This document shows positions 19,082-23,229 of a DNA stretch of 33,507 nucleotides, piece after piece. The position numbers and the translations under genes are program-made. The stretch is from NCBI GenBank assembly GCA_903901975.1, contig CAIUTB010000148.1, positions 1 through 33,507 of the forward strand. Direction: 5' to 3'. Below the pieces are notes generated by a model. The model saw only the letters and a list, made by a program, of their open reading frames with translations, ran no database searches and was not told the DNA's origin. This DNA comes from an uncultured Bacteroidales bacterium. Lineage in GTDB: Bacteria > Bacteroidota > Bacteroidia > Bacteroidales > Paludibacteraceae. How positions within the stretch are numbered: the first letter of the stretch is position 1; each line of letters opens with the position of its first letter.

Positions 19082-19116
19082 GTCTGCTGCCTACTACCTA
19101 CTATAAACTATTTACT
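19082..19116. repeat. Heptad tract overlapping the purL stop codon
   Basis: Five 7-nt units ending in ACT or GCT on the + strand (last two ATAAACT and ATTTACT) span 19082-19116. In purL sense they read AGTNNNN. They encode the final Ser-Lys residues and the TAG stop (19108-19110). Confidence 0.75.
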
Positions 19117-22100
19117 GTGTTTTTCCACCCATTCTCTCGCATTGACAAAAGCTTCCACCCACGGAGTAATTTGGTCGCTGTTTTTGCGGTCGGCAGGATA
19201 GTGTGCCCATTGCCATGGGAATACCGCACGTTCAGGGTGTGGCATCATTGCCAGGTGCCGACCATCCGTTGAGCAAATACCGGCTACTGCATAGTCCGAA
19301 CCATTCGGATTGGCCGGATAGCTTGCGTACGAGTATTTTGCAATGATATTGTATTCGCATTCCGGATTTGGAAGATAAAACTTTCCTTCACCATGAGCTA
19401 CCCATACACCCAGTTTGCTATTCGAAAGCGAGCCCAGCATGACCGAATTGTTTTCCGGAATAGTTAAGCCCACGAACCCTGATTCAAACTTATGTGAATC
19501 ATTGTGCAACATGCGTGGTTTTATGTCGTGCTCAGGATTTACCAGACCCAACTCAATCATCAATTGGCAACCGTTACAAATACCTAAGCTCAAGGTATCC
19601 TTGCGTTTGTAGAAGTTATCCAATGCAAGTTTGGCTTTTTCGTTGAATAAGAATCCACCGGCCCAACCTTTAGCTGAACCCAATACGTCGGAATTAGAGA
19701 ATCCACCGCAGAATACAATCATGTTTACATCTTCCAGTGTTTCGCGGCCTGTTGCAAGGTCGGTCATGTGAACGTCTTTTACGTCGAAACCGGCAAGATA
19801 CAGTGCGTAAGCCATTTCACGATCACCATTGGTTCCTTTTTCCCTGATAATAGCAGCTTTTATGCCACTTGGCGTACGGTCTTGTGAAATATTGAATTGA
19901 GAAAATTTACCGTTGAAACTGTCGGTAAATGCAAATTCCAGGGGTTGATTTTTATAGTTATTGAAACGAGCCGAAGCACATATTTCGCCACTTTGTTTGC
20001 GGTCGAGCAAGTAAGATGAGCGGAACCAGATATCGCGTAATTCGTTGATGGAGAATGAATATGAAGCTGATTTCTTGCTTATTTCCAAACGGCGTTCAGC
20101 AATTGGAGTTGCAATGCGGGCAAAACCGACACCATTATCGGTAAGGATTTTTTCAACCGCTTTACGATCTTTTACCTGAATTAATACACCCGGATTTTCA
20201 GCAAACAGAATATTTACCAATGATGTTTCAGCAATTCCTTCTAAGTTTACACTTAAACCACCGTTAGCATTGGCAAAACACATTTCGAGCAATGCGGTAA
20301 TTAGTCCACCTTCCGAAATGTCGTGTCCTGCCAGAATCAAACCTTTATTGATTAATTCCTGAATGCTGTCGAATGCCGCTTTGAAGTATTCTGCATCTTG
20401 TACGGTTGGAACTTCTTCGCCCAGTTTGTTCAGCGTTTGTCCCAATACCGAGCCACCTAATTTATGTTTGTCGAACGAGAAATCAATATAATAAATAGCT
20501 GTTTTTGGATCGTTTACCAAAACTTGACCTACAGTTTTTTTTACGTCAGAAACTTCAGCTCCGGCGGATATAATCACCGTTCCGGGCGAGAATACTTTTT
20601 CGTCACCGTATTTTTGAGTCATCGAAAGTGAGTCTTTTCCGGTAGGAATGTTGATGCCCAATGAGCAACAGAAGTCGCTACAAGCTTCAACGGCTTTGTA
20701 CAGTCGGGCATCTTCACCCGGATTGTTACAAGGCCACATCCAGTTGGCACTTAACGAAACGCTATCCAAACCGTCGGTCAATTGTGCCCAAATAATGTTG
20801 GTTAATGCTTCGGCAACTGCCAAAATCGAACCTGCTTCAGGGTTAACCATGGCTGCCAACGGTGCATGACCGATAGAAGTTGCTATACCTACGTTTCCAC
20901 GGTAATCCAGTGCTACAACGCCAAGGTCATTCAAAGGCAATTGAATTTCACCGGTACATTGCTGGCGAGCAATTTTACCGGTAATAGAGCGGTCAACTTT
21001 GTTTGTCAACCAATCTTTACAAGCAACAGACTCTACCTGCAATACGTTTTGAATGTATTCTTGTAATTTATCTTCGCTTATTTCAATTGGAGCATAATTT
21101 TCTTCGATTGTGCTGTCGGTCATGATGGTGCGTGGCGATTTTCCAATCAAATATTCCAGTGGGAGATCGATGGGAGAGGCCCCCCAACCCCCTGAAGGGG
21201 GAGTTTGTTTGGCCAGCTCAGTTTTTATTGAATTTAGAACGTTGTCAATATCACCAATTACTTCTTCATTTATAAATCGGATTACTTTGAAGCCATATTC
21301 CTGAAATAGTTGAGTGCGTAGTTTATCGTATTCTTTAACTTCAGGTTCATTATGGTACTTACCATCAACTTCAATTACCAAACTTTTTTGCAAACATACA
21401 AAATCGGCAATACAATCACCAATAATATGTTCTCTTCTGAATTTGTAACCGTCAAGATTCTTACCCTTTAGCTGTTCCCAGAGAAATTCTTCTGCCTGAG
21501 TAGGATTATTTTTGTGTTTGACAGCTAATTCTTTTAAACGTGCGTACATTGAAGGATATGCCGTTTGCATATTCGCTTTTTGTTCCCTCTTTAGGGGGCT
21601 AGGGGGCATCCCAAAAGTAAGTCTCATATCGCCGGTAGTTTCACCCACCACATACATGGGTGCGCGTTCGCGTTCAGCAATGCGGCGTACGCCTTCAATA
21701 GCAGATTCCGGAAGCACAAATCCCATACGCTCCTGACTTTCATTGCCGACAATTTCTTTGGCACTCAAGGTTGGATCGCCAATAGGAAGCGATGACAAAT
21801 TAATTTTACCACCGGTTGATTCCACTAATTCCGACAAACAATTCAAGTGTCCGCCTGCACCGTGGTCGTGAATAGAAACGATTGGATTTATATCTGCTTC
21901 AGCCAGCGTACGAATCACATTAGAAACACGTTTTTGCATTTCAGGATTGGCACGTTGTACGGCGTTTAGTTCAATCGCGTTATTGTATTCACCTGTTTGA
22001 ACAGACGATACAGCGGCACCACCCATACCAATACGGTAGTTGTCACCACCCATTACCACTACTTTTTCACCGGCTGCCACTTCGCCTTTCAGAGCATCAC

Positions 22101-23229
22101 GCATGGTTCCGAAACCAACACCACCGGCCAACATAATTACTTTGTCGTAACCGAATTTTTTGTTATTTTCCTCGTGCTCAAAAGTCAATAGAGAACCACA
22201 GATAAGTGGTTGACCGAATTTATTTCCGAAGTCCGAAGCTCCGTTTGAAGCTTTGATAAGTATTTGTTCAGGTGTTTGGTACAACCATTTACGTGGATTA
22301 ATCGTATTTTCCCAGCTGCGCGAATTGTCATTACGAGCGTATGAAGTCATATAAACAGCAGTTCCGGCAATCGGCAAACTCGCTTTTCCTCCGCCAAGGC
22401 GGTCGCGGATTTCACCACCAGCACCGGTAGCAGCACCGTTGAAAGGCTCAACGGTTGTTGGGAAGTTATGTGTTTCGGCTTTCAATGAAATTACCGATTC
22501 AATTTCTTTCGTTTGGAAAAAATCCGGTTTGTCGCCACTTGCCGGAGCAAATTGTTCAATTTTAGGACCGGCGTTGAAAGCCACATTGTCCTTGTAAGCC
22601 GAAACCAGTTTGTTTGGATTTTCTTCCGATGTTTTGCGAATCATTTTGAACAAAGTCAGTTCTTTTTCTTCGCCATCAATAATAAATTGTCCGTTGAAAA
22701 TTTTGTGACGACAGTGTTCCGAGTTTACCTGCGAGAATCCGAAAACTTCACTGTCAGTCAGTTTTCGACCCACTTTTTCGCTGATTCCGTTCAGATAATC
22801 CACTTCGTCAGGGCTTAAGGCCAACCCTTCCTGTGCACTGTAAGCTGCAATGTCATCAATCTCCAGAATTGGTTCCGGTAGTTTGTTTACCGTGAAAATT
22901 TCCTGATTCAAACCGGTGTAAATGCGCTGAAGCATAGGGTCGTATTCCAAACCGCCTTTGACAGAAGGTGTACTTGGAACGAGACTATACTCTTCTATAC
23001 GAATAATGCCAGAAATTCCCATGTTTTGGGTGATTTCAACAGCATTCGTACTCCAGGGGCTAATCATTTCGCGACGCGGACCGACGTAATTTCCTTCGAC
23101 ATGAGAGGATTCAAGTAACATTGCTTCGCTAAAAAGCCATTCTAACTTATGAACATCAGCCACTTTGAGGGGCTCGGCAGACTGAACAGCGTAAACATGT
23201 TGGGCAGGGGTTCGGAAAAATAAAATCAT
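19108..23229 (-). CDS. purL: Phosphoribosylformylglycinamidine synthase with an inserted DUF559 nuclease domain
   Basis: This is the single-chain (PurS-PurL-PurQ fused) FGAM synthase of purine synthesis, which uses glutamine and ATP to convert FGAR to FGAM. Landmarks are the FGAM linker and first AIRS half (SEHCRHKIFNG, ETHNFPTTVEPF), the second AIRS half (GKDSLSM) and the C-terminal glutaminase with nucleophile Cys1218 (GICNGCQLM), His1331 and Glu1333 (MMPHPERA). The protein is 1373 aa, about 140 longer than usual. The excess is residues 541-685, an in-frame DUF559 domain bounded by inverted repeats, between DMRLTFG and PIDLPLEYL. Those two segments are adjacent apart from a short loop in normal PurL. 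No stop or frameshift occurs, so the enzyme is probably functional with the insert in an interdomain loop (inference). It is monocistronic with its own promoter, leader hairpin and terminator. Confidence 0.95.
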   Translation of the reverse strand: MILFFRTPAQHVYAVQSAEPLKVADVHKLEWLFSEAMLLESSHVEGNYVGPRREMISPWSTNAVEITQNMGISGIIRIEEYSLVPSTPSVKGGLEYDPMLQRIYTGLNQEIFTVNKLPEPILEIDDIAAYSAQEGLALSPDEVDYLNGISEKVGRKLTDSEVFGFSQVNSEHCRHKIFNGQFIIDGEEKELTLFKMIRKTSEENPNKLVSAYKDNVAFNAGPKIEQFAPASGDKPDFFQTKEIESVISLKAETHNFPTTVEPFNGAATGAGGEIRDRLGGGKASLPIAGTAVYMTSYARNDNSRSWENTINPRKWLYQTPEQILIKASNGASDFGNKFGQPLICGSLLTFEHEENNKKFGYDKVIMLAGGVGFGTMRDALKGEVAAGEKVVVMGGDNYRIGMGGAAVSSVQTGEYNNAIELNAVQRANPEMQKRVSNVIRTLAEADINPIVSIHDHGAGGHLNCLSELVESTGGKINLSSLPIGDPTLSAKEIVGNESQERMGFVLPESAIEGVRRIAERERAPMYVVGETTGDMRLTFGMPPSPLKREQKANMQTAYPSMYARLKELAVKHKNNPTQAEEFLWEQLKGKNLDGYKFRREHIIGDCIADFVCLQKSLVIEVDGKYHNEPEVKEYDKLRTQLFQEYGFKVIRFINEEVIGDIDNVLNSIKTELAKQTPPSGGWGASPIDLPLEYLIGKSPRTIMTDSTIEENYAPIEISEDKLQEYIQNVLQVESVACKDWLTNKVDRSITGKIARQQCTGEIQLPLNDLGVVALDYRGNVGIATSIGHAPLAAMVNPEAGSILAVAEALTNIIWAQLTDGLDSVSLSANWMWPCNNPGEDARLYKAVEACSDFCCSLGINIPTGKDSLSMTQKYGDEKVFSPGTVIISAGAEVSDVKKTVGQVLVNDPKTAIYYIDFSFDKHKLGGSVLGQTLNKLGEEVPTVQDAEYFKAAFDSIQELINKGLILAGHDISEGGLITALLEMCFANANGGLSVNLEGIAETSLVNILFAENPGVLIQVKDRKAVEKILTDNGVGFARIATPIAERRLEISKKSASYSFSINELRDIWFRSSYLLDRKQSGEICASARFNNYKNQPLEFAFTDSFNGKFSQFNISQDRTPSGIKAAIIREKGTNGDREMAYALYLAGFDVKDVHMTDLATGRETLEDVNMIVFCGGFSNSDVLGSAKGWAGGFLFNEKAKLALDNFYKRKDTLSLGICNGCQLMIELGLVNPEHDIKPRMLHNDSHKFESGFVGLTIPENNSVMLGSLSNSKLGVWVAHGEGKFYLPNPECEYNIIAKYSYASYPANPNGSDYAVAGICSTDGRHLAMMPHPERAVFPWQWAHYPADRKNSDQITPWVEAFVNAREWVEKHSK
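21176..21203. repeat. Terminal inverted repeat, purL element (gene-3' side)
   Basis: This end reads inward as C-run, AA, CCCCCT, GA, AGGGGG. The CCCCCT/AGGGGG part folds on itself. About 22 of 28 positions match the other terminus in inverted orientation. Confidence 0.8.
21582..21610. repeat. Terminal inverted repeat, purL element (gene-5' side)
   Basis: Read inward on the - strand this is GATG, C-run, TAG, CCCCCT, AAAGAGGGAAC. It has the same design as the opposite terminus and as the ends of the 5580-5719 element. Confidence 0.8.

Follow-up and report, generated by a model that had tools for sequence, protein, structure and literature searches.

The stretch of DNA considered here, a contig of 33,507 nucleotides from an uncultured Bacteroidales bacterium of the family Paludibacteraceae (assembly GCA_903901975.1, contig CAIUTB010000148.1; in what follows, the window), carries a purL gene, coding for phosphoribosylformylglycinamidine synthase, which is interrupted in frame by an insert encoding a DUF559 nuclease between two palindromic ends. 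Comparison of this gene with its relatives, and of the insert with similar inserts found in other enzymes of the Bacteroidota, makes it probable that the insert is a homing-type (EDxHD/Vsr-like) mobile element persisting in essential proteins as a loop domain that is not spliced out. An earlier note on this DNA had proposed a mobile element living as a tolerated domain in essential proteins, and this proposal is supported by its patchy occurrence in PurL, by the recurrence of its ends and by the number of its hosts.

The interrupted gene forms a single open frame (Table 1) and is the sole purL match at E <= 1e-20 in the genome of the window, a 170-contig assembly of the metagenome-assembled genome (MAG) type, here called G000 (G-codes designate the compared genomes and L-codes the loci). 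Pfam recognises PurL domains on either side of the insert and DUF559 (PF04480) between them, with an E-value of 6e-30 and a score of 103.8 bits against a curated cut-off of 20.6, confirming the in-frame nuclease element described in the earlier note; the terminal inverted C-run/G-run repeats, also reported there, are found exactly from 21176 to 21610, as two 27-nt arms that are 81% complementary. The pattern CCCCTAR-N(0-2)-CCCC is matched in the window only at the 5' arm (two overlapping matches; mean of 100 shuffles, 0), the 3' arm being a variant, CCCCCCAACCCCC, which this pattern misses. Filled purL junctions read DMRLTF, insert, PIDL, with the upstream text VGETTGDMRLTF followed by 435-447 nt and then PIDL, while empty ones, among the 30 loci read, mostly have VGETTGDM(K/N/D/Q/R)FVFEQADGEK-PIDL with small variations; from the comparison of filled and empty junctions it follows that the mobile unit consists of 438 nt (21175-21612) taking the place of a 21-nt loop. 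The boundaries first given for the insert were near these, its start being Gly-Met-Pro and not Met-Pro; the counterparts in empty genes of the segments TGDMRLTFG and PIDLPLEYL, which had been said to be joined normally by a short loop, are joined by seven residues, and RLTF (12 nt) travels with the insert. All eight PurL inserts that were found are free of stop codons and have a length that is a multiple of three.

Table 1. The interrupted purL gene of the window and the parts of its insert (ends named in gene orientation).
Feature	Positions	Strand	Remarks
purL host open reading frame (phosphoribosylformylglycinamidine synthase)	19108..23229	minus	1373 aa, no internal stop
In-frame insert, 146 codons	21175..21612	minus	between RLTF and PIDL; takes the place of EQADGEK, the 7-codon loop found in empty relatives
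DUF559 / EDxHD Vsr-like nuclease domain, aa 565-672	21214..21537	minus	Pfam, AlphaFold2 model, Foldseek
5' palindromic end, GATGCCCCCTAGCCCCCTAAAGAGGGA	21584..21610	minus	translated within PurL
3' palindromic end, TCCCCCTTCAGGGGGTTGGGGGGCCTC	21176..21202	minus	inverted copy; translated
12-nt flank RLTF	21613..21624	minus	common to the 8 filled purL genes, differs in the compared empty ones
PIDL	21163..21174	minus	the host's conserved codons resume here, downstream of the insert

In a survey of 100 related genomes (that of the window included), purL was matched in 78, with 79 matches in total, and only eight of these are filled, in open reading frames (ORFs) of 1373-1446 aa; the remaining matches lie mostly in ORFs of about 1230-1290 aa, some being shorter at contig ends. 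Junctions and tree cover 30 of the 79 loci, the other 49 (some of them with ORFs truncated by contig ends) having been scored by ORF length and by the lack of a DUF559 match on the contig. On the tree of the 30 genes, computed from the flanking host sequence only and with L107, which has N at the junction, scored as empty, the eight filled rows need eight changes, no fewer than with shuffled labels; at least seven of these changes are forced by well supported branches, a single clade of filled hosts is rejected by the approximately unbiased (AU) test (p 4e-63), and the empty PurL of G011 is the close sister of the filled PurL of G002. An old domain of PurL common to the whole order, the case which the earlier note had set against its own proposal, does not therefore agree with 8 filled genes among 79, scattered over the tree.

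The nucleases themselves are grouped differently, according to the site in which they reside: those of PurL form one clade (8/8; support 100/98), as do those of a second site in isoleucyl-tRNA synthetase, IleS (4/4; 100/99), those of ValS, across two genera (4/4; 97/89), and those of IleS site 1 (3/3; 88/92). In a tree of 60 domains the site label changes 12 times, against 37.9 with shuffled labels, and in one of 162 domains across the phylum 34 times, against 112; identical domains and stretches under about 80-85 residues were removed from both, and the free copies in the 60-domain tree are those of the examined loci only. Taken with the tree of the hosts, this comparison shows lateral spread of the element to one and the same site in PurL.

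The occurrence of the nuclease in other proteins is extensive. At E <= 1e-8, DUF559 is present in 53 of the 100 genomes (again including that of the window) with 122 matches, 47 of them inside ORFs longer than 500 aa: three in G000, 40 in loci picked for examination by this length, and four weaker ones (in G089, G094, G054 and G023:C159) left out. In all 40 examined loci the nuclease was found again within the long ORF, flanked by peptides that are mostly those of the host enzyme; the hosts comprise PurL, IleS (two sites), ValS, LeuS, MetH, UvrA, a Type ISP restriction enzyme and a DNA methylase, the labels used in the trees being derived from junction motifs, with a profile check for part of the loci and none for HsdR. 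The sites of IleS (site 1), ValS and LeuS sit directly before motifs of the WTTTPWTL, TTRPETI and TTRPDTI type, positions which we take to be homologous entries of the editing domain of these synthetases. In a sample of the phylum, DUF559 is matched at E <= 1e-20 in 159 of 395 genomes, and many of the matches listed fall in ORFs of more than 1000 aa; two single-contig genomes carry the element, G202 in LeuS and G335 in MetH (labels by motif); a search with the short LeuS junction peptide returned mixed weak matches from which no count was drawn.

A scan of named strains gave 80 loci, chosen as those closest to a query of the PurL/IleS type, so that their proportions are not those of DUF559 as a whole; 72 of them have the nuclease within an ORF of 260 aa or more, and eight are free. 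The hosts of the 72 are MetH (23), IleS (12), LeuS (7), PurL, UvrA and ValS (2 each), these six having been assigned by BLAST to exemplars, and other proteins (24), ten of which were identified by NCBIfam: CinA, RecG, methionyl-tRNA synthetase (MetRS), urocanate hydratase, IcmF, CCA tRNA nucleotidyltransferase, adenine deaminase, UDP-sugar reductase and, twice, MiaB, several of these matches being below the curated cut-off, in some cases since the match is divided by the insert or the locus is truncated. Cultured carriers among the 80 loci belong to species of Flavivirga, Psychroflexus, Winogradskyella, Tenacibaculum and Flavobacterium. In the cultured strain Flavivirga rizhaonensis RZ03 the interrupted IleS is the sole IleS match; Psychroflexus planctonicus has, besides its interrupted IleS, one 27%-identical match in an 886-aa ORF, probably ValS. 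The expectation that DUF559 would be found in frame inside unrelated housekeeping proteins is thus borne out in many hosts, which suggests that many housekeeping proteins of the Bacteroidota carry an embedded nuclease.

The nuclease domain is modelled by AlphaFold2 (AF2) with a mean predicted local distance difference test (pLDDT) score of 82.4. In Foldseek the model of the insert matches 3hrl and the homing endonuclease I-Bth0305I (3r3p), both at E < 0.001, with template modelling (TM) scores of 0.85 and 0.80 on target length and 0.53 on query length, since the model includes the linkers; a weaker match is Vsr, 1cw0 (E 0.05, probability 0.99). The same two structures are the nearest solved relatives in a profile sequence search (3hrl, 2e-29; 3r3p, 7e-7). 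Of 123 in-gene copies, 121-123 retain each of the active-site columns E, D, E, D, H and D; among these, the E (121), D (122), H (122) and D (122) columns are probably those of the EDxHD type, I-Bth0305I lacking some of them in the profile match. Exceptions are the nuclease of G034, in which Tyr stands where the E-x-D motif has its second acid, and that of G043, which has Asn there, as in I-Bth0305I. The ratio of non-synonymous to synonymous substitution rates (dN/dS) of the insert is 0.12-0.35 in PurL pairs, and this purifying selection, together with the near-invariant active site, indicates that the nuclease is maintained in a functional state. The possibility of a conserved ATG start of its own was considered and rejected: of 142 in-gene domain rows (duplicates included, and with ATG only taken into account), 65 have and 77 lack a Met within 40 residues around the start of the domain. 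Since a Met ahead of the domain is not conserved, the nuclease is probably translated together with its host; the two are therefore expected to form one polypeptide, in which the insert would stay.

The ends of the element are hairpins, each with a C-run on its outer side (CCCCCTAAATCCCCCnnnGGGGGACTTT for IleS and UvrA, CCCCCTAACCCCCTnAAGGGGGAAC for PurL, and C/T-rich versions for ValS, LeuS and MetH); in the frame used, they read as linkers rich in Pro and Gly. Automatic detection gave ends on both sides of 84 of 120 in-gene copies of DUF559 and of 18 of 34 free ones, as compared with 0 among 770 shuffled pairs of flanks (copies less than 200 nt from the end of a locus, or with N, were skipped by the detector), so that the same terminal repeats do recur around other DUF559 genes, whose lack of them the earlier note had named as evidence against a mobile unit. 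The ends are not confined to the nuclease. With a looser pattern, 69 ends of types A and B are counted in G000, against 35 for the reversed pattern, a control that is uninformative for type A because CCCCCTAAATCCCCC reads identically backwards; of 68 distinct ends, 42 are outside any frame longer than 200 aa, 18 at the edge of one and eight inside (five in IleS, one in UvrA and two near the start of the ORF of an Fe-S protein). Fourteen pairs of ends lie less than 250 bp apart, all of them convergent and 91-146 bp in length, resembling nuclease-less elements; by eye, no common core was seen in the interiors of these 14 pairs. At L207:1520-2260, two convergent ends separated by 739 bp surround an unrelated ORF of 197 aa, which lies upstream of a glyA-like ORF and has no Pfam match above cut-off; the ends can therefore bound other DNA, and this ORF may be another cargo. 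Type-A ends occur in 38 of the 100 genomes, 33 of these within the genus; genomes with a type-A nuclease element hold more of them (7 versus 41 genomes of the genus, p 1e-4, kinship uncorrected), and the number of all DUF559 matches correlates weakly with that of type-A ends per genome (Spearman 0.32, p 0.03). The ends thus appear to belong to a larger, genome-wide family of palindromes, comparable to repetitive extragenic palindromic (REP) sequences and miniature inverted-repeat transposable elements (MITEs), which exists also without the nuclease.

Inserts with and without nuclease coexist in the genome of the window. The sole IleS found in G000 (L006:3088-7398, contig C52) is a 1436-aa ORF with three inserts, all in frame: two complete DUF559 elements and one lone palindromic end (KSPKGDLGG). 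Its UvrA (L181, at about 1501, contig C52) has a lone in-frame end at the site which in the UvrA of G006 (L014/L043) is filled by a full element, and a further strong DUF559 gene of this genome, the fourth, stands free on contig C2 and has C/G-run ends of another type. In the 60-domain tree the three in-gene nuclease copies of G000 fall into three different site clades. Elsewhere, IleS site 1 is full in three of 32 genes, has in seven just one or two palindromic ends and a short linker, and is empty in 22, and the PurL of G034 (L263) bears, just after SLSMTQ, a second palindrome in frame and without nuclease. End-only inserts thus stand at sites shared with full elements, and we infer that they arose by decay of the nuclease; a pattern of full, end-only and empty sites is what the model of a homing cycle predicts.

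A further trace is left in the flanks. Over the 12 nt upstream of the PurL insert, identity is 0.87 between filled genes, 0.46 between filled and empty and 0.75 between empty ones, and no comparable signal was seen beyond 12 nt upstream, or downstream of the insert, in the 26 purL genes compared (of the 30 loci, L097, L102, L103 and L107, which are distant or contain N, were omitted). At IleS site 1 it is the downstream side that carries the signal: the 12 nt preceding the conserved YFLAW have an identity of 0.83 between full genes (three pairs), 0.39 between full and empty and 0.51 between empty ones, the codons just downstream being AGT/AGC-AATGTC in all three full genes.

These observations may be arranged in a cycle. 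Once transfer between cells has brought filled and empty DNA together, the nuclease would cut the empty allele near the loop, and repair of the break would copy the filled allele together with some 9-12 nt of flank, a length that the shared flanks display. The filled cell would survive since the loop tolerates the domain, as indicated indirectly by the sole PurL and the sole IleS found. Some copies would then drop the nuclease, leaving one or two in-frame palindromic ends, of which the end-only inserts may be the remnants, and rare jumps to new loops would found the lineages of the different sites, perhaps aided by ends that match a high-copy MITE-like family. The comparison of sequences shows the insert and its ends, lateral spread to one site in PurL, clustering by site, selection on the nuclease, end-only inserts at shared sites and an interrupted sole IleS in a cultured strain; cleavage of the empty allele, repair-driven copying, a nuclease that drives its own spread, the absence of processing, decay as the origin of end-only inserts and any role of the ends in reaching new sites are inferences.

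Several observations weigh against this interpretation. The flank test at IleS is based on three full genes, and the element's own end accounts for about 3 of the 12 nt compared, leaving about 9; homing by homologous repair with a shared flank of 9-12 nt between genes about 80% identical would be unusual, and the RLTF codons may represent a linked variant of old date. Site fidelity is imperfect, strict fidelity of every lineage not being observed on a 111-column tree with many weak forks: in the 60-domain tree LeuS needs four changes for eight rows and MetH three for ten, and in the phylum tree the MetH linker needs 8 for 24, IleS site 2 6 for 14, LeuS 4 for 16, MetRS 3 for 5 and adenine deaminase 3 for 3, so that all five of these sites appear to have been colonised more than once. 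As for divergence, it speaks for lateral spread that the synonymous distance (dS) of the insert is below that of the host in 28 of 28 PurL pairs (for example 0.42 versus 1.31 between G000 and G017), but these values are not independent of one another, and the NG86 dS of the hosts is close to saturation; raw nucleotide identity is higher in the insert in 20 of the pairs, equal in four and lower in four, and at the protein level the insert is more diverged than its host in all 28. The divergence of insert and host is correlated (0.62 for nucleotides, 0.68 for amino acids), and part of the history may therefore be vertical or limited to clades. Palindromes are present in G003, G011, G035 and G039, each without a DUF559 match at E <= 1e-8, and the ends must therefore have some life of their own. 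Finally, the AlphaFold model of the insert within PurL, built on a three-row alignment, reached a pLDDT of 28.6 and was discarded, and the placement in a loop therefore rests on the alignment.

The strongest competitor of a homing element is a transposon bounded by the palindromes, in which the C/G ends are mobile, the unit transposes with the nuclease as its transposition enzyme, and the preference for certain sites merely reflects the tolerance of loops. This explanation, partly compatible with homing, seems to us rather unlikely. It would account for the abundance of A/B-type ends in G000 and the convergence of 14 of 14 close pairs, arranged like the ends of the nuclease element, for end-only inserts within genes (a third place in IleS, UvrA, the second place in the PurL of G034) and for the excess of type-A ends where type-A nuclease elements occur; but in-gene copies cluster by site, those of G000 not falling together, no target duplication was seen by eye at the junctions read or at the MITE flanks, and the ends occur also where DUF559 is not matched. 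Alternatively, the palindromes could be REPs owned by a resident system of REP-associated tyrosine (RAYT/Y1) transposases, the DUF559 gene hitch-hiking between them. RAYT systems are known movers of REP palindromes, G000 has seven Y1_Tnp matches, and at L349 a convergent pair of another C/G-run hairpin (of the CCCCAAGCCCCTAAAGGGG type) stands about 1.1 kb from the Y1 gene; ends of the A/B type are found at none of the seven Y1 loci (1.5 kb on each side, less in L344), however, and the short palindromes beside L343-L345 have, by eye, other sequences, which makes such ownership improbable.

The purifying selection on the domain and its near-invariant active site would be equally expected of an accessory domain domesticated by PurL and other enzymes for a host function. 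The eight changes for eight rows on the purL tree, the empty G011 beside the filled G002 and the presence of the same nuclease in at least a dozen unrelated enzymes render domestication very improbable. We give as little credit to an intein or intron, that is, to removal of the insert from protein or RNA, even if the choice of targets follows a logic like that of inteins and a DUF559 gene is mentioned in the intein section of a paper on Thermosynechococcus: the inserts stay open and in frame in eight of eight PurL genes, no intein splice residues were seen by eye at the junctions, as had been claimed from the start, and only about 38 residues are left besides the nuclease domain, too few for any known intein fold. 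No intein family was found in the Pfam scan of the filled PurL, and no Rfam match at gathering scores, such as the ribozyme core of a group I or II intron, in the window. An artefact of assembly or binning, which the nature of the G000 assembly might suggest, is scarcely credible for an element present in many independent genomes, including the single-contig G202 and G335 and named cultured strains.

A homing-type element resident in loops resembles several known systems, each in part. Inteins with homing endonucleases are placed in frame at conserved sites of essential enzymes, with a patchy, site-clustered distribution, and some lack the nuclease; the element shares the in-frame conserved sites, the patchy and site-clustered phylogeny and the nuclease-less copies, but has neither splicing domain nor splice residues and should remain in the mature enzyme. 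The earlier note had named Rickettsia palindromic elements and inteins as known in-frame insertions; the spread of the element tends to be site-specific, as in inteins, and not a random insertion of palindromes. In fungi, rps3 has been invaded by LAGLIDADG nucleases, with fusion, duplication of the host end and no splicing; here too a nuclease gene is joined unspliced to a protein gene, although that system is organellar and its nuclease of the LAGLIDADG type. With the EDxHD homing endonucleases such as I-Bth0305I the element has in common a related nuclease sequence and fold and a lateral, site-clustered spread; a review on this family describes phage-type enzymes with extra DNA-binding regions (PMC3943268), whereas the element is a bare domain of about 110 aa fused in frame to housekeeping proteins, with no intron found. 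According to their abstract, the WHO elements of yeasts, related to inteins, home into a housekeeping gene without protein splicing and replace the 3' end of FBA1 (PMC7282813); the DUF559 element, which would likewise home unspliced into housekeeping genes, replaces an internal loop in frame and has a Vsr-like nuclease. Rickettsia palindromic elements (RPEs), of about 150 bp, are palindromic mobile DNA translated inside unrelated genes and tolerated there, and a review that describes them does not contain the word nuclease (PMC10969869); the DUF559 element, akin to them in its mode of life, has one between its palindromic ends. REP sequences, bacterial interspersed mosaic elements (BIMEs) and MITEs are described as small inverted units of high copy number mostly outside genes (PMC10969869; PMC3733652), in contrast to ends which here are of the C-run/G-run type, are associated with DUF559 and, for types A and B, were not found at the Y1 genes of G000.

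The usual view, for which the abstract on WHO elements may also be cited (PMC7282813), is that mobile nucleases persist in essential genes by way of introns, inteins or intergenic sites, or by supplying anew the part of the gene that they damage. The present family as a whole appears, instead, to live openly as a loop domain of aminoacyl-tRNA synthetases, PurL, MetH, UvrA and other proteins across the Bacteroidota, and offers a directly testable system for how selfish DNA turns into protein sequence, as well as a candidate engine for coding palindromes. No description of it was found in the openly accessible literature as searched by title and beginning of abstract, most subscription papers and bioRxiv being outside this scope. 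It may be proposed, as a tentative and still rather doubtful extension, that it represents a mobile element of a new kind, namely a cassette with a nuclease and with ends that act both as DNA mobility signals and as translated Pro/Gly linkers; the cassette could thus enter loops of essential enzymes in frame, become a permanent domain, home across species to the same loop and shed nuclease-less coding palindromes. If so, it would be the missing autonomous partner of protein-coding palindromes of the Rickettsia type, and would illustrate how inteins or domain insertions could come about in evolution.

Some observations in single loci may be added. The seven Y1 (RAYT-like) transposase matches of G000 are located in L343-L349, and some are flanked by other short palindromes, for example GCCACTTCGTGGC; at L171:1500-1621, a MITE-like pair of palindromes is in frame near the start of the Fe-S-protein-like ORF. 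In L300 the insert-bearing urocanate hydratase is on a contig titled Candidatus Saccharibacteria, which may reflect either transfer beyond the phylum or an error of binning. DUF559 elements are seen also in restriction-modification genes, namely in L055 (Type ISP, by Pfam), L057 (DNA methylase, by Pfam) and L067 (by kinship), and in the HsdR-like genes of L246 and L251 (by motif); in hosts of this sort the nuclease could alternatively have been recruited as a part of the restriction apparatus.

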